A DNA stretch of 41,646 nucleotides from Candidatus Villigracilaceae bacterium. GTDB lineage: Bacteria; Chloroflexota; Anaerolineae; Anaerolineales; Villigracilaceae. The notes under the pieces were generated by a model. That model worked only from the letters and a program-made list of their open reading frames with translations. It had not been told where the DNA came from and did not search any database. Every line of letters begins with the position of its first letter. Positions within the stretch are counted from its first letter, which is position 1. The DNA lies in contig JAPKMP010000029.1 in the NCBI GenBank assembly GCA_026645935.1, positions 1-41,646 on the forward strand, in the 5' to 3' direction. Positions 13,153 through 22,116 of this stretch are shown piece after piece. The position numbers and the translations under genes were made by a program.

Positions 13153-15249
13153 TTAGGGCTTCAATTCAATCCGTTTGATTCTAACGTCAAGAGCTACCGC
13201 CCCCTTGGAAAGCACGCGCAGGGGATTGATCTCGATCTCTTCGATCTCTTCATGTTCGGCAGCGAGGCGCGAGAGGCTGATCAAGACATCCCTGACCGAT
13301 CCCTCATCCACCGGCGGGATGCTGCGAAAACCCTTTAACTTCCTCCCAGCCCATGTTTTGCGCATCATGTCCTCCGCCTCGGCTTGGTCCAGCGGACCCA
13401 GGCAGAAGGCTACATCCTTGAGCCCTTCCACCTCGACCCCGCCCGAACCAAACATCATCAATGGACCGAATTGTTCATCGCGCATCATCCCGACAATGAC
13501 CTCCTGCCCTTCAGCGATATGCGATTGGAGGTGAACGCCGTCGACCCTCGGCGGAGGGACGCGGGATCGAATCTGTGTCAACATCTTCGTAAAAGCGCTT
13601 TGGAGCGATGCTGCATCATTGATGTTCAGCACCACGCCGCCGACATCGGATTTGTGCAGAATATCCGGCGAAGCGATCTTCATCACGACCGGATATCCAA
13701 GTTCATTTGCAATTTCGACGGCTTCGTCTTCGGTCCTGGCAAGTCTGATCGGGGCGGTGGGAATGCCGTAGGCGGTCATCAGCTCGCTTGGAGTCCAGGA
13801 CTTGCCTATTTTGGGTTTTACCTCCGTTTGTAAATTCGGGGTGTTTTGTGCTCCCTTTGTGCGTTTCACCAATGCCGCCAACGCGGATGCAGCACGTTCC
13901 GGAAATGGGAATGTGACAACCTTTGACCGTGTAAATGATTCGACCGCCTTTTCCACCAGTCTCGAGCCCATCAGGGCGATCACGACCGGTTTATCGGATT
14001 TTTCGATCACATCATTGACCGCTTTCGCTACTTCATCCGCTTTGAACATCGGCGGAGGCGGGAGAATGACCATCACCGCGTCCACGTTTTTATCCTGCAG
14101 GAGAATCTTCAAGCATTCGGCGTATTGATCCGGCGAAGCTGAGGCAAGCATATCGACCGGGTTATTTATATTTGCAGCGGGTGGGAGAGTGGCGGATAAA
14201 ACTTTCAGCGTGTCATCGCTCAAACGGGCAAGGATCAGGTTGTTATTCTCGAGAGAATCGGCGGCGATCACACCAGGTCCGCCTGCATTGGTCAATATTG
14301 CAATCCTGCTTAAGGTGTCCGAGTACGCGGTGCGATCGTTCCTTGCTGTGGAAAGACCACCCGGATATCTCTCGAGTGCCCGCGCCCAGTCGAACATCTG
14401 CTCGGCGGTCTCGGCGCGGAGGATGCCTGCCTTTTCGAAAGCAGCATCGAAGGCGGTATCCGATGCGGCCAAGGCTCCAGTGTGCGAGGCGGCTGCTTTT
14501 TGTCCCGCCTCGAAGCGACCGACCTTCAACGCGATGACCGGTTTCCGCTTCGAGACTTCACCCGCAGCCTGGACGAATCGTTTTCCATCTGAAACGCTTT
14601 CCATGTACATCACGATCACATGAGTATGCGGATCGTCGGCGAGCATGGTCAGCATATCGGTTTCGTTCACATCCGCCTGATTGCCGAGGCTGACGATGCG
14701 CGAGAAGCCGAAACCCTGACCGCGCGCCCAATCCACGATGGCGGCAGCGAATGCGCCTGAGTGAGAAATGAAACCGATACCGCCTTGTTCGGGCATGGGA
14801 GGCTGCAGGAATGTCGTATCGAGGGGATAGTGTGTATCAATGGTGCCGATGCAATTTGGACCGAGTAATCGCACGCCGTGTTTCTGTGCAACTTCCACGC
14901 ATTGTCGTTCGAGCTTTGCGCCTTCTTCGCCAACTTCACGAAAGCCCGCCGAGACGATGACGGCAGCACGGATGCCGCGCCTGCCGCAATCTTCGATGAT
15001 TTGAGGTGTGGCTTGTGTGGGGACAATGAGAATTGCAAGGTCAACGGGATATGGGATATCCTGAAGGCGGGCATGGATCTTCCTCCCGAAAACCTCTCCG
15101 CTCTTTTGCGCGAGGAGATGGATTGCGCCCTTGTAACCGCATTGGATGAGGTTGCGCGTCACGCCGTAGCCGAGTTTCTCAGGCGATGTGGACGCACCGA
15201 TGACAACGACGCCTCTGGGTTGAAAGAAGGGCAGAAGGGGGGAGTCCAT
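13153..15249 (-). CDS. ADP-forming acyl-CoA synthetase (fused alpha-beta)
   Basis: A 698-residue NDP-forming acyl-CoA synthetase with alpha and beta parts fused. Order: CoA-binding Rossmann domain (about 7-130, GVVVIGAS), succinyl-CoA-ligase-like domain with the phosphorylated H256 in ASHTGAL, a second ligase domain (about 300-450), then an ATP-grasp domain (about 475-698) with VVMKIASPDILHKSDVGG. It converts an acyl-CoA, ADP and phosphate to the acid, CoA and ATP, a fermentative substrate-level phosphorylation. I chose the ATG at 15247-15249; it has no Shine-Dalgarno, but TTTAAT lies exactly 6 nt upstream. A TTG start 18 bp earlier is less likely. Confidence 0.88.
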   Translation of the reverse strand: MDSPLLPFFQPRGVVVIGASTSPEKLGYGVTRNLIQCGYKGAIHLLAQKSGEVFGRKIHARLQDIPYPVDLAILIVPTQATPQIIEDCGRRGIRAAVIVSAGFREVGEEGAKLERQCVEVAQKHGVRLLGPNCIGTIDTHYPLDTTFLQPPMPEQGGIGFISHSGAFAAAIVDWARGQGFGFSRIVSLGNQADVNETDMLTMLADDPHTHVIVMYMESVSDGKRFVQAAGEVSKRKPVIALKVGRFEAGQKAAASHTGALAASDTAFDAAFEKAGILRAETAEQMFDWARALERYPGGLSTARNDRTAYSDTLSRIAILTNAGGPGVIAADSLENNNLILARLSDDTLKVLSATLPPAANINNPVDMLASASPDQYAECLKILLQDKNVDAVMVILPPPPMFKADEVAKAVNDVIEKSDKPVVIALMGSRLVEKAVESFTRSKVVTFPFPERAASALAALVKRTKGAQNTPNLQTEVKPKIGKSWTPSELMTAYGIPTAPIRLARTEDEAVEIANELGYPVVMKIASPDILHKSDVGGVVLNINDAASLQSAFTKMLTQIRSRVPPPRVDGVHLQSHIAEGQEVIVGMMRDEQFGPLMMFGSGGVEVEGLKDVAFCLGPLDQAEAEDMMRKTWAGRKLKGFRSIPPVDEGSVRDVLISLSRLAAEHEEIEEIEINPLRVLSKGAVALDVRIKRIELKP

Positions 15250-15255
15250 TCGAGG

Positions 15256-15261
15256 ATTAAA
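15256..15261 (-). promoter_or_regulatory. -10 box exactly 6 nt before the acyl-CoA synthetase ATG
   Basis: TTTAAT on the minus strand followed by 6 nt and the ATG at 15249, with no ribosome-binding site. This matches leaderless transcription. Confidence 0.45.
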
Positions 15262-15393
15262 CCACAATAATGGCTTATTTTGAGTTCAGAAATGCCTCAA
15301 TTAAACCCTGGTCAAGTCCGATATCGACATTGCGCGAACCGCTGCCGGTTCGTTTATAAATCGTCTCGGGTTAATTATTCACCAGAACCTTGA

Positions 15394-15792
15394 TCACCAT
15401 TTGTTTTCGATAAAAGCCTTCCACCCCACATTCTCGGCAAGATTGGCGAGGCTTGTCACTTTTCCAACGTCGCCTTTTGCGTCATCGAGAATTTTGAGAA
15501 AAAGCCCATCCAGTTCCCTGCTTTTCAAACGGCGATAGACTTCGAAGACCTGCGGTTGTTTTTCAGGCGGATATTCCGCCTGGACTTTGCGATTGACTTC
15601 CCTCTCGGATACATCCTGCATGTTCATGAGGTATAGGAATGTTCCAACTGCCAATAGCAGGGCGATGCCTGTGAATATCTCCGAACCTCCCAATCCATTG
15701 GACCCATCCAGCACCAAGGACGCCGCCAGGGCGATCACAATGCCGATGATTGTGTAGAACAAACCGTTTTTCTTCCAAAGGAACATGTTCAT
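15394..15792 (-). CDS. Small membrane protein of unknown function
   Basis: A 132-residue protein with two N-terminal membrane helices (about 11-28 and 38-56, the latter IFTGIALLLAVGTFLYLM) and a charged cytoplasmic tail rich in K, E and D. AGAGGTG lies just before the ATG at 15792 and TATAAT is at 15816-15821. I do not recognise the family. Confidence 0.7.
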   Translation of the reverse strand: MNMFLWKKNGLFYTIIGIVIALAASLVLDGSNGLGGSEIFTGIALLLAVGTFLYLMNMQDVSEREVNRKVQAEYPPEKQPQVFEVYRRLKSRELDGLFLKILDDAKGDVGKVTSLANLAENVGWKAFIENKW

Positions 15793-15815
15793 CCGACACC
15801 TCTTTCTTCGAAATC

Positions 15816-15821
15816 ATTATA
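15816..15821 (-). promoter_or_regulatory. -10 box of the 15.4-kb membrane gene
   Basis: TATAAT on the minus strand, 23 nt before the ATG. It lies directly downstream of the decarboxylase pseudogene's end. Confidence 0.4.
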
Positions 15822-15840
15822 GCAAGACGGGACGGCGGTT

Positions 15841-16170
15841 TCAATAACGCGTTCCCAAACCGGGTATCTTGCTCTCGCCTGAGAGGAGAATCCCTCCTGC
15901 GGCCACCCTGCCCCGTTGACCCGCTGTAGTCGCTCCCATCGCGTGCATCAAAATATATTTATTCGAGCCTTCATCGTTCGCGAACCTGGCGGCGAATCCG
16001 CCCGCCATCGGGAAGGCGGAGATTCCCGCCTGTTAGAAAAGACTTCAACCTGCCAAAAAGCAGACCAGCCACGGCGGCGGCTGCTTGAACGGGCATAAAT
16101 CTCATTTGCAAATACGCCGCCATCGCGATCGGAGCAAGAAATTCCGGCAAGCTTCGTGTGATTATCCATC
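15841..16170 (-). pseudogene. Decayed decarboxylase beta-subunit gene (mmdB/oadB remnant)
   Basis: This region fills most of the 509-bp stretch before the aldehyde oxidoreductase gene and has no intact gene. Read on the minus strand it carries fragments matching the intact beta subunit at 18535-19668. In one frame it reads AGISAFPMAG, then ILMHAMGATTAGQRG and AAGGILLS, ending at a stop at 15841-15843. In a second frame it reads LAPIAMAAY and VAGLLFGRLKSFLTGG. An in-frame TAA at 16033-16035, at least two frameshifts and a loss of about 115 central residues mark it as dead. It differs from the intact copy at many sites, so it is an old paralogue rather than a fresh duplication. Confidence 0.85.
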
Positions 16171-16301
16171 GCACGACTTGAAAACAAGGTTCTTCCTGAC
16201 ACGCTCAAAACGGGAAGATAATCAGTATGCGTTTGTTGCCTTCTCTGTCATAATAAAAACGGCATTTTTTCCGCGCCGTTACACAAAAAGGAGAATTGCA
16301 C

Positions 16302-18464
16302 ATGACACTGTCTGCACAATCAGCAGAATCGACTCTTTTGGGGGAATATTCGTATGAACTTCGTGCCGTCGAACGCGGGTACGCCAACCGAACGCTCTAC
16401 ATCAATTTGGAAAACAACCTGATTTCTGAAAAACCGGTCAAGCAGCAAATGAAAGACCTGTTCACAGGCGGGCGGGGATTTGCGCTCAAGCTGTTGTGGG
16501 ATGCCGTTACACCTGAAACCACCTGGGACGATCCGCGGAATGAACTGGTGATTGCCAACGGACCGATTTGTGGAATCACCGCGTATCCTGGCACAGGCAA
16601 ATCAACGGTCGTTACGCTTAGTCCGCTGACAGGGAACGTCATTGACAGCAATGTGGGCGGGTATTTTGCGCCGTTCCTCAAATTCTCTGGCTTCGACGCG
16701 CTTGAAATTCAGGGCAAAGCGGCTCGGGATGTGATCATCTTCATCGACGGTGATAACGGCCGGGTCACGATCGAGCCGTACTCATTCGAAGCGGAGGATT
16801 CGCATTTGATCGGTAACATCCTCACCGCAAAGTATGGCGGCGACGAAAAGGGCAAACGCGGGATTTCGGTTTTATCTTCGGGTCAAGCCGCGGAGCACAC
16901 GCGCATCGCCGCGATCAACTCCACCTGGTACGACGTCCGCCGGAAAGAGGCGCGCATCAAGCAGGCGGGACGCGGCGGCGCGGGGCGCGTTTTCCGCGAC
17001 AAGAAGATTGCCGCCATCGTTTGCCGCTTCAGCGACATGAGCGGCGACAAGAACGGCGTGGCAGATATGGCGCTCATCCGCCAGGCAGGGCAGCGTATCA
17101 ACAAAGAGATCACAGAACTGGACAATTCGCAGAATCAGATGCGGAAGATCGGCACTGCCAACATTGTGGATGTGATGGATCACTTCGACCTTCTGCCGAC
17201 GCACAACTTCCGCTTCGGCTCGCATCCTGACACGCACAAGATCGATTCCAAGGTCTGGAAGGAAAAATTCACCCAAGGCCTGCCGGATGGATGCTGGCTG
17301 GGATGTACCATGTCCTGTTCGCACGGAGTTGATCACTTCCCGATTCAAACCGGACCTTATGCCGGGACCTGTGTTCTGGTGGATGGTCCTGAATACGAGA
17401 ACGCTGCCGGGCTCGGATCGAACATCGGAAACTTTGACGCACAGAAGGTCCTCGAACTCAACTTCTACTGCGACACCTACGGCATCGACACGATCTCGGT
17501 GGCGAACTGTATCGCCTTCGCAATGGAATGTTACGAAGAAGGGATTTTGAACAAGGAGCGCACCGGCGGCTTGGAGTTGAACTTCGGCAACGCAGCGGCG
17601 GCGCTTGAATTACTTCACCAAATGGCGCGCGGCGAAGGCTTTGGCGTGATCGTGGGCCAGGGCGTGCGCTACATGAAGGAATATTTTGCGCGTGAATTCG
17701 GCGGCGACCCGGTCTTCATGCATGATATCGGCATGGAGATCAAGGGCATGGAGATCTCCGAATACCTCACCAAGGAATCGCTTGCCCAACAGGGCGGTTA
17801 CGGGCTCGCCACAAAAGGACCGCAGCACGATGAAGCCTGGCTTATCTTCATGGATCAGGTTCATAACCTCCTGCCCGGTTTTCAGGACAAGGCCGAAGCG
17901 CTGCACTACTTCCCGATGTGGCGGACGTGGTTCAGTCTGCATGGACTGTGCAAACTCCCGTGGAACGATATTTCGCCCGCGAATAATAAGGAAACCAAGG
18001 AACCCGCCAAAGTGCAGGAGCACGTCGAAAACTACACGTGGATTCATCAGGGTGTGACCGGCAAGCCCACCAAAGCCGAAGATTTGCTGGCGCAATCGGA
18101 GCGCGTGTATAACTTTCAAAAAGTATTCGCCCTGCGTATGGGACGCGTCGGACGCAGACATGATTTTCCACCTTACCGCGCCATGGGACCTGTGACCAAA
18201 CTTGAATACGAGTCGCGCCGGGAGCGCTACGATGATCAATTGAAGAGACTCATCGGTATTGACCCGGCGATCCTGTCCACGGAGGAGAAAATGGCGCATC
18301 TCCGCAAATATCGTGAAGCGCAGTATGAATTGCTGATGGACGCCGTCTACGAACGCCGCGGCTGGGATAAGAACAGCATTCCCACCGTGGAAAAACTTCG
18401 CGAATTGAACATGGACCTTCCCGAAGTTGTCGAGGTGGTTGAGCAGGCGAAGAGGAAAATCTAG
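16302..18464 (+). CDS. aor: Aldehyde:ferredoxin oxidoreductase family protein
   Basis: A 720-residue tungsten/molybdenum bis-pterin oxidoreductase of the AOR family, longer than the usual 600-630. The N-terminal AOR domain is at about 25-240. Four cysteines can hold the 4Fe-4S cluster: C331, C335 and C339 (GCWLGCTMSC) and C550 (LHGLCKLPW). It oxidises aldehydes to acids with ferredoxin, or runs in reverse. AAGGAG is 8 nt before ATG 16302, which decides the start over an in-frame TTG at 16296. It stands alone on the plus strand between the beta-subunit pseudogene and the intact decarboxylase operon, and ends in a strong hairpin. The substrate is not readable. Confidence 0.9.
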   Translation: MTLSAQSAESTLLGEYSYELRAVERGYANRTLYINLENNLISEKPVKQQMKDLFTGGRGFALKLLWDAVTPETTWDDPRNELVIANGPICGITAYPGTGKSTVVTLSPLTGNVIDSNVGGYFAPFLKFSGFDALEIQGKAARDVIIFIDGDNGRVTIEPYSFEAEDSHLIGNILTAKYGGDEKGKRGISVLSSGQAAEHTRIAAINSTWYDVRRKEARIKQAGRGGAGRVFRDKKIAAIVCRFSDMSGDKNGVADMALIRQAGQRINKEITELDNSQNQMRKIGTANIVDVMDHFDLLPTHNFRFGSHPDTHKIDSKVWKEKFTQGLPDGCWLGCTMSCSHGVDHFPIQTGPYAGTCVLVDGPEYENAAGLGSNIGNFDAQKVLELNFYCDTYGIDTISVANCIAFAMECYEEGILNKERTGGLELNFGNAAAALELLHQMARGEGFGVIVGQGVRYMKEYFAREFGGDPVFMHDIGMEIKGMEISEYLTKESLAQQGGYGLATKGPQHDEAWLIFMDQVHNLLPGFQDKAEALHYFPMWRTWFSLHGLCKLPWNDISPANNKETKEPAKVQEHVENYTWIHQGVTGKPTKAEDLLAQSERVYNFQKVFALRMGRVGRRHDFPPYRAMGPVTKLEYESRRERYDDQLKRLIGIDPAILSTEEKMAHLRKYREAQYELLMDAVYERRGWDKNSIPTVEKLRELNMDLPEVVEVVEQAKRKI

Positions 18465-18473
18465 TAGAAACGA

Positions 18474-18511
18474 ATCAAAAACAGGCGGCTTCAATCCCGC
18501 CTGTTTTTGAT
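18474..18511. terminator. Bidirectional 15-bp terminator hairpin
   Basis: A perfect 15-bp stem (18474-18488 with 18497-18511) with an 8-nt loop. It contains ACAGGCGG/CCGCCTGT and has A and T runs on its two sides. It lies between the convergent aldehyde oxidoreductase and decarboxylase operon and can terminate both. Confidence 0.85.
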
Positions 18512-18534
18512 TCCATGCGAGAACTTATTCTTGG

Positions 18535-19668
18535 TCAAATTCCCAAGAGTTTACTGACGACCGAAAGCAAAATCCCGCCCGCGATGACACTACCCAACTG
18601 GCCTGCCGTATTCGCTCCCATTGCATGCATCAGAATGAAATTATCCGCATCTTCGTCGTTCGCGGTTTTTGCCGCGAGACGGCCCGCCATCGGGAAGGCG
18701 GAAATTCCCGCCGCGCCGATGAGCGGGTTGATCTTCCCGCCGGTTACAAACGACATCAACTTTCCAAAGAGCAAACCTGCCACTGTATCGAGCGCGAATG
18801 CGAATAGACCGAGCAGCATGATCTTACCCGTATCGATATTGAGGAAACCGGCTGCTGTCATGGTCGAGCCGATTGCCAGACCCAGAAACAGCGTGGCAAT
18901 GTTGATGATTTCATTCTGCGCTGCGTTGCTCAAGCGGTCCACCACGCCCGAAGCCTTCAATAAATTGCCAAGCATCAACATCGAGATGAGCGGAGTGGCT
19001 TCCGGCACCAGCAGACCGACCACCAGGGTCAGCACGACGGGGAAGAAGATCAATGTCCGTTTCGAGATGGGCTTGGGCGCATACTCCATGCGGATCATGC
19101 GTTCTTTTTTCGTCGTCAATAATTTCATCAACGGAGGCTGGATGATGGGGATTAAACTCATGTATGAATACGCCGCCACCGCGATCGGTGCGAGCAGTTC
19201 CGGCGCGAGTTTGGTCGCTACGAAGATCGAAGTCGGTCCGTCAATCGCGCCGATCACGCCGATGGACGCGGCTTGATTCAATGGGAAGCCCAATGCGATT
19301 GCAAGCATGAGCGTGCCGAAGATCCCGAACTGGCCCGCCGCGCCGAGCAGGACCATGCGCGGCTGCGCCAGCAGCGGCGAGAAATCGATCATGGCGCCGA
19401 CACCGATGAAGATGAGCAGGGGGAACAATTCGGTTTTGATTCCCGCGTCGTAAATGACCTTTGTCATGCCTTCGGCGGCAGTCATGCCTGCCAATGGGAT
19501 ATTTGCCAGCAAACAACCAAACCCGATGGGCAATAACAAGACCGGCTCGATCTCCTTGAACACGGCGAGATAGATCAGAATCAGCGCGGCAAGGATCATA
19601 ACGCCGTTGCCGATGGTAAAGTTGGATAAGCCCTTCAGCAATTCAGGAAGCAGCTCGTTAAGGTTCAT
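18535..19668 (-). CDS. mmdB: Sodium-pumping decarboxylase beta subunit
   Basis: A 377-residue membrane protein of the OadB/MmdB/GcdB family with about ten membrane helices. The GAIDGPTSIF segment (140-149) carries D143, which corresponds to the sodium-coupling aspartate of the family. NAAQNEIINIATLFLGLAIG and the C-terminal GAAGISAFPMAGR are further hallmarks. It decarboxylates carboxybiotin and exports sodium ions. It is the last gene of the operon: its ATG is 2 bp after the biotin-carrier stop codon, with GGAG at the end of that gene. A related pseudogene lies at 15841-16170. Confidence 0.92.
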   Translation of the reverse strand: MNLNELLPELLKGLSNFTIGNGVMILAALILIYLAVFKEIEPVLLLPIGFGCLLANIPLAGMTAAEGMTKVIYDAGIKTELFPLLIFIGVGAMIDFSPLLAQPRMVLLGAAGQFGIFGTLMLAIALGFPLNQAASIGVIGAIDGPTSIFVATKLAPELLAPIAVAAYSYMSLIPIIQPPLMKLLTTKKERMIRMEYAPKPISKRTLIFFPVVLTLVVGLLVPEATPLISMLMLGNLLKASGVVDRLSNAAQNEIINIATLFLGLAIGSTMTAAGFLNIDTGKIMLLGLFAFALDTVAGLLFGKLMSFVTGGKINPLIGAAGISAFPMAGRLAAKTANDEDADNFILMHAMGANTAGQLGSVIAGGILLSVVSKLLGI

Positions 19669-19670
19669 GC

Positions 19671-20108
19671 CTACTCCGCAAAATGAATCAACGCCTGTTT
19701 GTGCGCCACGCTTTGTCCCTGATTTACCAGCACCTTGTCCACGGTCCCGCCGTAGATCGAACGGATGCTGTTCTTCATCTTCATCGCTTCGATGATGAGC
19801 ACCACCTGGCCCGCTTCCACCTTTTCCCCGGCTTTCACAAACACTTCCACCACGGTCCCTGGCAGGGGCGAAGTGAGGGTGTGGTTTCCGACGGGTGTGG
19901 GAGCCGATGCAGCCGCCGGAGTCGGAACTTGAATGACGGGCTTTGATCCCGCCTTTGGTCCCGCATCTTTCTGGACCTCAACCTGATTTCTTCGATCCGG
20001 CATGACTTCGAACCGCTGACCCTCCACATAAACGACGACAGGCCGCGCGTTGATATTTTCGATTTCCACATCGTAGGTTTGGTTGTTGACCGTAAGTCTG
20101 TATTTCAT
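19671..20108 (-). CDS. mmdC: Biotin carrier subunit of the decarboxylase
   Basis: A 145-residue biotinyl protein. The N-terminal part (1-50) is strand-rich, a proline/alanine linker lies at about 52-75, and the biotinyl domain (about 77-145) carries K110 in EAMKMKN, the biotinylation site. It carries carboxybiotin from the carboxyltransferase to the membrane beta subunit. GGAG lies 5 nt before the ATG. Confidence 0.92.
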   Translation of the reverse strand: MKYRLTVNNQTYDVEIENINARPVVVYVEGQRFEVMPDRRNQVEVQKDAGPKAGSKPVIQVPTPAAASAPTPVGNHTLTSPLPGTVVEVFVKAGEKVEAGQVVLIIEAMKMKNSIRSIYGGTVDKVLVNQGQSVAHKQALIHFAE

Positions 20109-20135: not shown

Positions 20136-20477
20136 TTAATACCTCGGAGGTCTGGCTTGATTCCCTTTTTCCGCCATTTGTCTTGTTCGCAATCCCAACT
20201 GCCAGGCGGAAACAATCGCTGTCGGGGGCATTTCCAATGGACGCGCAGATGAAGCTTCCTGATCTTCCAATGCCATGCCTGCGGCAAGCAAAGCCACCAG
20301 CAGGTTGGAATCGGCCTGGGTGGATGTGCCAGCTTTGGGCGAGTCTGATGCGGGTGGTTTTTCCCGGGTCAAAGCTGTCAGGACAGCCATCATCAGCCAG
20401 AGTAGAAGGATCGCGCCAAAGACGAGTCCCATGCCGAGGGCGGTGATTTGGAGTGAGAGTTGAAGATCGGGTGTCAT
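20136..20477 (-). CDS. OadG/MmdD-like small membrane subunit
   Basis: A 113-residue protein with a single N-terminal membrane helix (about 12-35) followed by a polar tail rich in A, S and P, the layout of OadG-family gamma/delta subunits. It assembles the complex in related enzymes. The start is the ATG at 20475-20477; it has only a weak AAGG about 8 nt upstream. An upstream GTG would add 17 residues. Sequence conservation is low, so the call rests mostly on topology and its place between the carboxyltransferase and the biotin carrier. Confidence 0.7.
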   Translation of the reverse strand: MTPDLQLSLQITALGMGLVFGAILLLWLMMAVLTALTREKPPASDSPKAGTSTQADSNLLVALLAAGMALEDQEASSARPLEMPPTAIVSAWQLGLRTRQMAEKGNQARPPRY

Positions 20478-20531
20478 ATGTATTTGCCTTGAAAACGGAA
20501 GTGGCAGGTATTTCCTTCCACCTTTCACTCG

Positions 20532-22085
20532 CTACACCGGAATGTTCCCATGCTTGCGCGGCGGCGCGGGCGCGAACTTATCGCGGAGCGCCGAAAGCGA
20601 GGCAATGATCTTCGGGCGGGATTCGCGCGGTTCGATGATGTCGTCCACATAGCCGGTGGATGCGGCATAGTATGGATTATTGAACTTATCGCGATATTCA
20701 TCGGCAAGCCGTTTGCGTTCGGCGACTGGGTCAGGCGCGGATTCGATCTGTTTTTTGTAAAGAATGTTTGCCGCGCCTTCCGCGCCGAGCACGGCGATCT
20801 CAGCGGAGGGCCAGGCATAAGTCACATCGGTCCCAAGATACTTGCTCGACATGACAACATATGCGCCGCCGTATGCCTTGCGCGTGATGACGCAGATTTT
20901 CGGCACGGTGGCTTCTGAATAGGCGTAGAGCAGTTTTGCCCCATGACGGATGATGCCGCCATGTTCCTGGGCGATGCCGGGCAGGAAACCCGGCGAATCG
21001 ACGAAGGTGACCAGGGGAATGTTGAAGCAGTCACACATGCGCACGAAGCGCGTCATTTTGTCGGCGGCGTCGATATCGATCACGCCCGCCATGATGGACG
21101 GTTCCTGCGAAACGATGCCCACACTGTGCCCGCCGATGCGCGCCAGACCGATGATGGCATTGCGCGCCCAATCGGGTTGAAGTTCGAGAAATGTTCCATG
21201 ATCGACGATTTTCTCGATGACCTGGTGCATCACGTACGGCTCATTCGCCTCGAGCGGCACGATGTCGTTGAGAGATTCGTCCATGCGGGCAAGATCGTCG
21301 ATGGGTTGAACATACGGAGGGTTTTCCACGTTATTCGAAGGCAGATACGAAAGGAATCGTCGAGCCGTTTCGAGCGCATCCAACTCCGACTTCAGGCTCA
21401 AATGTGCGACGCCGCTGATGGACATATGAACATTCGAGCCGCCCAGTGATTCCGCGTCGATCACTTCGCCGGTTACGGCTTTGATCACTTCCGGTCCGGT
21501 CAGGAACATGAATGATTGCTTTTCGACCATGATGACGAGATCGGTCAGCGCAGGGGAATAGGCGGCGCCGCCTGCGCACGGTCCGAGCATGATGCTCACT
21601 TGGGGAACCACGCCGGAGTATTGCGCATTGCGTCGGAAAATTTCCGCATAACCGCCCATCGAGCGCACGCCTTCCTGGATTCTCGCGCCGCCCGAGTCGA
21701 TCAATGATATGAACGGCACACCGTTGCGGACCGCCAGGTCCATGACACGGCAGATCTTATGAGATTGCATCTCGCTCAGCGTCCCGCCATAAATTGTAAA
21801 ATCCTGTGAGTATAAATATACCGTCCGCCCGTTGATCTGTCCGTAGCCTGTGACGACCCCGTCACCGTAAAACTTATCCTTCAACAACCCCAATTCATCG
21901 CCCTGATGTGTGATGAACGGTTCGATCTCGTTGAATGTCCCGGGGTCCAGCAGGGCGTCGATGCGTTCGCGCGCAGTCAGTTTTCCCTTGGCGCGCTGTT
22001 TGGCGATGCGTTCCTCGCCTCCGCCTTCCTTCGCCTTCGCGCGGACTTTTCTCAGTTCCAAAATTCTCGGATCTTCATTAGTCAT
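20532..22085 (-). CDS. mmdA: Carboxyltransferase subunit (methylmalonyl-CoA decarboxylase alpha)
   Basis: A 517-residue acyl-CoA carboxyltransferase of two crotonase-like halves. The N half has SGGARIQEG (131-139) and GPCAGGAAYSPAL (168-180), which form the acyl-CoA and oxyanion sites; the C half has GFLPGIAQEHGG and RKAYGGAYVVM. It transfers carboxyl from an acyl-CoA (most likely methylmalonyl-CoA; glutaconyl-CoA or propionyl-CoA are alternatives) to biotin. It is the first gene of the operon. I chose the ATG at 22085, with GAGG 7 nt upstream. A short palindrome, TTTGTC-A-GACAAA, lies at 22117-22129 in the promoter region. Confidence 0.92.
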   Translation of the reverse strand: MTNEDPRILELRKVRAKAKEGGGEERIAKQRAKGKLTARERIDALLDPGTFNEIEPFITHQGDELGLLKDKFYGDGVVTGYGQINGRTVYLYSQDFTIYGGTLSEMQSHKICRVMDLAVRNGVPFISLIDSGGARIQEGVRSMGGYAEIFRRNAQYSGVVPQVSIMLGPCAGGAAYSPALTDLVIMVEKQSFMFLTGPEVIKAVTGEVIDAESLGGSNVHMSISGVAHLSLKSELDALETARRFLSYLPSNNVENPPYVQPIDDLARMDESLNDIVPLEANEPYVMHQVIEKIVDHGTFLELQPDWARNAIIGLARIGGHSVGIVSQEPSIMAGVIDIDAADKMTRFVRMCDCFNIPLVTFVDSPGFLPGIAQEHGGIIRHGAKLLYAYSEATVPKICVITRKAYGGAYVVMSSKYLGTDVTYAWPSAEIAVLGAEGAANILYKKQIESAPDPVAERKRLADEYRDKFNNPYYAASTGYVDDIIEPRESRPKIIASLSALRDKFAPAPPRKHGNIPV

Positions 22086-22116
22086 AGTCAACCTCGCGGA
22101 TGAAGTATAGCGATGC

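Follow-up and report, generated by a model that had tools for sequence, protein, structure and literature searches.

In the stretch of Candidatus Villigracilaceae DNA that we analysed (41,646 nucleotides, hereafter the window), positions 15845-16167 of the minus strand are very probably a duplicated pseudogene: a further copy of mmdB, from the genus's own lineage, of which the 3′ part survives in decayed form and now has no function. This reading is drawn from sequence comparison, both with the intact mmdB of the same genome and with a sister species (G032) that carries the same remnant. The remnant and the intact gene lie on either side of an aldehyde:ferredoxin oxidoreductase (AOR) gene, in the same orientation. 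The parts of the remnant and the intact operon are as follows.

15845-16167, minus strand: mmdB/oadB pseudogene remnant, 3′ part with internal deletions (tblastn blocks, G032 counterpart, codon-position pattern)
16088-16168, minus strand: block corresponding to MmdB residues 149-175 (tblastn)
16016-16084, minus strand: block corresponding to MmdB residues 292-314 (tblastn)
15856-16029, minus strand: block corresponding to MmdB residues 320-377, the C-terminus (tblastn)
16024-16035, minus strand: approximate site of a 29-nt deletion, plus the exposed TAA at 16033-16035 (alignments with G032 and the intact gene)
18535-19668, minus strand: intact mmdB/oadB, sodium-pump decarboxylase beta subunit (OAD_beta, E 2.7e-147; TIGR01109, E 3.2e-134)
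19671-20108, minus strand: biotin carrier of the mmd operon (profile matches)
20136-20528, minus strand: gamma subunit of the mmd operon (profile matches)
20532-22091, minus strand: mmdA, carboxyltransferase alpha subunit of the mmd operon (profile matches)

The gamma subunit is a divergent chain, which scores 28.2 bits against OAD_gamma (cut-off 27) and 23.6 bits against TIGR01195 (cut-off 36.05).

A tblastn search with the intact MmdB (377 aa) as query and positions 15793-16295 as target returned three blocks, all on the minus strand and collinear with the intact gene. The best match, to residues 320-377, has 69% identity over 58 aa (77.8 bits, E 4e-23); the top score among 1000 dinucleotide-preserving shuffles of the stretch was 23.5 bits. 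Protein identity is 61-64% in the block of residues 292-314 and 48% in that of residues 149-175 (E 1e-6 for each), and DNA identity in the order of the gene is 57/74 (77%), 41/50 (82%) and 112/150 (75%). The blocks themselves span 15856-16168, and homology reaches the 3′ end of the gene at about 15845. When the whole genome was searched with MmdB at E values up to 10, only the intact gene and the pieces of the remnant were found. A preliminary description of this DNA had reported MmdB/OadB fragments in the order of the intact gene, with about 115 central residues missing and a stop at 16033-16035, and had proposed a translated search as a check; the tblastn result agrees with it on the fragments, their order, the central gap and the coordinates. 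The remnant is thus related by descent to the OadB/MmdB family (PF03977, TIGR01109), as the last 58 residues make plainest, but it keeps only 108 of the 377 residues, in three pieces and two frames. With about 270 codons lost and no single frame that matches either family model nearly end to end, it cannot make the membrane subunit. An Rfam search of the remnant (E up to 1) gave no match, and we rejected an RNA element on this basis.

Two large lesions account for most of the loss. The first ~148 codons are missing (a 5′ truncation), as are ~116 central codons, whose gap is the junction between the blocks of residues 149-175 and 292-314. The earlier list of lesions had included the central gap, but said nothing of the truncation or of what kind of lesion changes the frame. 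Both large lesions are common to this genome and G032, whose intact MmdB is 99.7% identical in protein and 96% in DNA, and whose remnant lies in the same place (locus L034, 8073-8605). Synteny in relatives, which had been named as a further check, revealed a corresponding remnant in G032 rather than unrelated sequence.

The small lesions differ between the two species. Alignment with G032 identified a 29-nt deletion in the remnant of this genome that is absent from the sister species; it adjoins a short imperfect direct repeat (GGCGGGGA / GGTGGGAA in G032) and throws the last block (residues 320-377) into another frame. The G032 remnant in turn has a single-base deletion near its 3′ end, where this genome retains the base. 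The TAA at 16033-16035 is present off-frame both in the intact mmdB and in the G032 remnant. It is thus a by-product of the 29-nt frameshift, so the stop noted earlier is correctly placed but is an off-frame triplet exposed by the shift and not a separate mutation. These comparisons also bear on whether a working gene could have been garbled by sequencing or assembly error. Although the genome is a 70-contig draft, the remnant found in G032 shares the large deletion, differs in its small lesions and lacks the 29-nt loss, so that the remnant is not an assembly artefact; we regard such an error as having a negligible chance of being the explanation.

Substitutions between the two species point the same way. 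The remnants differ at 6 of 85, 13 of 87 and 6 of 84 sites at codon positions 1, 2 and 3, whereas the intact mmdB genes differ at 6, 0 and 36 of 377 sites each (Fisher p 7e-7), and purifying selection at positions 1 and 2 was not detected in the remnant. Over its whole length there are 28 substitutions in 322 aligned sites, which matches the neutral rate given by the third positions of mmdB (36/377). Third-position differences in other genes are 41/520 for mmdA, 46/705 for the neighbouring acyl-CoA ligase and 9/133 for the gene at 15394, so that the divergence of the remnant is close to that of mmdB and mmdA and somewhat higher than that of the other two; the region upstream of AOR has 4 differences in 128 sites. 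To judge from these counts, which show no trace of coding constraint, the two remnants have been drifting neutrally since the species split. The shared disabling lesions, the G032 counterpart and the neutral pattern together uphold the original proposal of a dead paralogue of the beta subunit, and in annotations the stretch should be given as a pseudogene rather than a coding sequence.

Three properties that define a duplicated pseudogene were found here, namely descent from a working gene that persists in the genome, disabling lesions (the 5′ truncation, the central deletion and the 29-nt frameshift deletion) and divergence at the neutral rate. The remnant also resembles other duplicated (non-unitary) bacterial pseudogenes in its truncation, internal deletions, frameshift and neutral codon-position pattern, as well as in having an intact parent nearby and a counterpart in a sister species. 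By all of these comparisons it is an ordinary genome fossil, common to sister species and without visible selection. Since it predates a species split, its age may exceed that of most bacterial gene remnants. No such remnant is named in the openings of the abstracts that a literature search returned.

To place the second copy, we built a tree of 29 intact mmdB genes (25 from the genus and 4 outgroups), taken from 34 genomes with an mmdB match, and attached the remnant pair to each of the 55 branches. The remnant blocks were put into columns by hand from the alignment and sites outside the blocks were dropped, which left 295 columns. The six placements on outgroup branches were 35-47 log units worse than the best (AU p 0.0006 or lower), and a foreign mmdB from outside the genus, represented by four outgroup genes, was rejected. 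A placement on the stem of the genus was 5.5 log units worse and was not rejected (AU 0.11). The best placement was beside G024, with the local mmdB pair of this genome (G000) and G032 1.9-2.2 log units behind (AU 0.56 and 0.53). By raw identity, the local mmdB genes are nearest to both remnants, and a tree from the remnant columns joins the remnants with the local genes (support 77), whereas one from the full-length alignment puts them beside G024 (support 56). On this phylogenetic evidence the remnant descends from the genus's own mmdB lineage, and local duplication of the mmdB ~2.4 kb away is the simplest reading of its source, though not a proven one.

The surroundings of the remnant indicate how the two copies came to flank AOR.

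13153-15267, minus strand: ADP-forming acyl-CoA synthetase (acetate-CoA ligase type), the old divergent neighbour of AOR (profile matches, synteny)
15394-15792, minus strand: small predicted protein with no family match; G016 and G014 also have a relative close to the acyl-CoA ligase
16168-16295, plus strand: conserved region upstream of AOR, presumed promoter region (DNA matches; ends where the remnant begins)
16296-18464, plus strand: AOR (AFOR_N and AFOR_C)
18472-18513, plus strand: hairpin terminator 3′ of AOR (17-bp stem, z -7.0)
18464-18538 of the window, with 14545-15195 of locus L124 and with locus L125: rearrangement junctions, joined and reciprocal, in both genomes

The remnant is the foreign part of the spacer between ligase and AOR. 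On one side is a TATAAT-like motif upstream of the gene at 15394, with a similar motif in G016 and G014 (by eye), and on the other is the conserved upstream region of AOR, where DNA matches begin at 16168 for G018 and at 16195 for G025. Ligase and AOR are old divergent neighbours in the closest relatives. Setting G032 apart, the ligase is upstream of AOR in nine of 12 relatives' loci tested, six of them at a distance of 146-287 bp; the 12 were drawn from 28 relatives' loci mostly for their ligase-like DNA, and the fraction is not a frequency. The AOR is divergent from the same acyl-CoA ligase, with a conserved block (d) behind it, in G018, G025, G021, G072, G073 and G017. Block d is found 3′ of AOR in six of the seven loci examined, the exception being G026, and in G064 and G034 the ligase is also beside AOR on contigs too short to show the sequence behind. 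Among 80 AOR loci from named genomes, the ligase is upstream in seven, including all five with at least 89% AOR identity, and an mmdB match was found in none of the 80, many of which are short. The ligase-AOR spacer is 0.9-2.4 kb in loci L070 and L104 (G073), L105 (G017) and L134, compared with 0.15-0.29 kb elsewhere; these long spacers contain other sequence, with no mmdB match.

A corresponding comparison was made for the mmd operon. In the relatives' loci fetched besides G032, from the 34 genomes with an mmdB match, a conserved block that starts with a gene for a PLP enzyme (c1) follows the operon within 5 kb in 18 of 19 cases, the exception being G005. In this genome and G032, by contrast with those relatives, mmdB and AOR meet at their 3′ ends, and blocks d and c1, both displaced, lie together at a second junction (L124, L125). 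The paired junctions indicate that a reciprocal rearrangement joined the mmd operon to the 3′ side of AOR. Both loci lie on one contig in G021 and G017, with the ligase beside AOR, and there one strand carries both mmdB and AOR, as a single inversion requires. A single inversion would not leave the d-c1 junction in the same orientation as mmdB, as it is in G032; either one or more further steps were involved, or the event was no plain inversion. Since the AOR hairpin has counterparts in relatives, the breakpoint in this genome lies in the ~20 bp between the hairpin and the stop codon of mmdB. The idea that staggered breaks of an inversion left the remnant behind is not supported, since the remnant sits beyond AOR rather than at the d4|c1 junction, where no mmdB match was found in G032. 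In G005 (L036, 4657-6200), a DUF1330 gene comes after mmdB, and beyond it are the MOSC and PLP genes that belong to the ligase locus, but ligase and AOR themselves are missing there; judging by this gene order, G005 probably has the same mmdB junction and later lost ligase and AOR.

These gene orders weigh on the suggestion in the preliminary description that the oxidoreductase had been inserted between duplicates, that is, that AOR and its upstream region entered or split a tandem pair of mmdB copies. The flanking of AOR by two copies in the same orientation fits such an insertion, as does the end of the remnant where the AOR upstream region starts. However, six relatives have the divergent ligase-AOR pair with block d behind, none of the 80 AOR loci from named genomes has mmdB while all five of the closest have the ligase upstream, and a similar terminator hairpin follows AOR in G018, G025 and G021. 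Because AOR kept its old ligase neighbour and the mmd operon joined its other side, we do not think that AOR was inserted, and we consider the insertion highly improbable. The preliminary description had offered, as its other possibility, an old second decarboxylase operon that decayed. A second mmdB copy did exist, and it is conceivable, though unlikely, that a whole mmd operon was once present and that all of it but the last part of mmdB has been erased: mmdB is the final gene of the operon, its 3′ end is preserved in the remnant, and the excess third-position divergence of the remnant (see below) hints that the copy once worked. Against this, searches for fragments of mmdA, biotin carrier and gamma subunit gave nothing, either between 15250 and 16295 (E up to 1) or in the rest of the window outside the operon (E up to 0.01), the 5′ side of the remnant adjoins the AOR upstream region directly, and among 36 other genomes of the genus a second mmdB match occurs only in G032, which has this remnant, and in G017, whose single gene is split into two overlapping pieces. 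In G017 (L106, L105/L172), AOR and ligase are in pieces as well as mmdB, and sequencing indels are likely there.

Within the preferred reading of a duplicated pseudogene, the copy may or may not have worked before it decayed. For a copy that was dead from birth, divergence at positions 1 and 2 is expected to be about half that at position 3. Compared with the intact gene, the remnant of this genome differs at 27/175 sites at positions 1 and 2 and at 38/87 at position 3 (LRT p 0.003-0.008), and that of G032 at 37/194 and 40/95 (LRT p 0.05-0.10); the test assumes equal mutation rates and a Jukes-Cantor correction, and the history of the two versions is largely a common one. The third-position difference is 0.437 in this genome, where 0.33-0.34 would be expected if the copy had been neutral from birth, and 0.421 in G032, where 0.35-0.36 would be expected. 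In a gamma model, the third-position ratio on the stem is 1.6-fold for the local placement and 2.0-2.4 for the other three, figures that favour a period of selection less than the count test does. We trust these branch lengths less than the count test, since rate variation inflates positions 1 and 2. In their input, the row for G032 had one base left out, with a gap a few columns on. The excess at third positions is a hint that the second mmdB copy may have been under selection for a period.

A partial duplication, in which the copy was made with AOR or alone, comprised no more than the 3′ part of mmdB and never worked, is a real possibility, albeit one that the codon counts mildly disfavour. 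It would account for the truncation at the boundary of the AOR upstream region; a local source was not rejected, the pattern since the species split is neutral, and the gamma model gives just a 1.6-fold excess on the stem for the local placement. Third positions nevertheless exceed the neutral-from-birth prediction, in a test that is crude, and weak for G032. It is rather doubtful that the lineage once had two working beta-subunit genes around AOR, the second being kept, used and then discarded after the rearrangement. If this were true, the remnant would be a record of selection for the physical coupling of the sodium pump to aldehyde oxidation and to the formation of acyl-CoA/ATP.

These observations give the following course of events. 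As comparison with relatives shows, acyl-CoA ligase and AOR were old divergent neighbours, with the mmd operon elsewhere. A reciprocal rearrangement of the inversion type, visible in the junctions, joined the 3′ end of AOR to that of mmdB, and the displaced flanks to each other. A copy of mmdB would have arrived between the gene at 15394 and the upstream region of AOR, for which local duplication is the simplest route. The lesions that both species have show that the first ~148 and ~116 central codons were lost before the split from G032; neutral drift followed, in which the 29-nt frameshift deletion arose here and the single-base deletion in G032.

The remnant and the reciprocal junctions mark the rearrangement by which the mmd operon and the AOR/ligase pair came together in one branch of the genus, and this rearrangement is mildly useful as a lineage marker. 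AOR and the sodium-pump operon became close neighbours recently in this lineage, and their proximity should not be taken to mean that they form a functional cluster of ancient origin. The 18472-18513 hairpin now lies between the convergent AOR and mmdB and has A and T tracts, and from this arrangement it is probably a bidirectional terminator. The similarity to the hairpin sequences 3′ of AOR in G018, G025 and G021 was seen by eye. Two weak mir-26 matches from Rfam fall on this terminator (22.5 and 21.4 bits; gathering threshold 57). In G032, the AOR-mmdB spacer is ~130 bp longer, with the extra sequence inside the hairpin.
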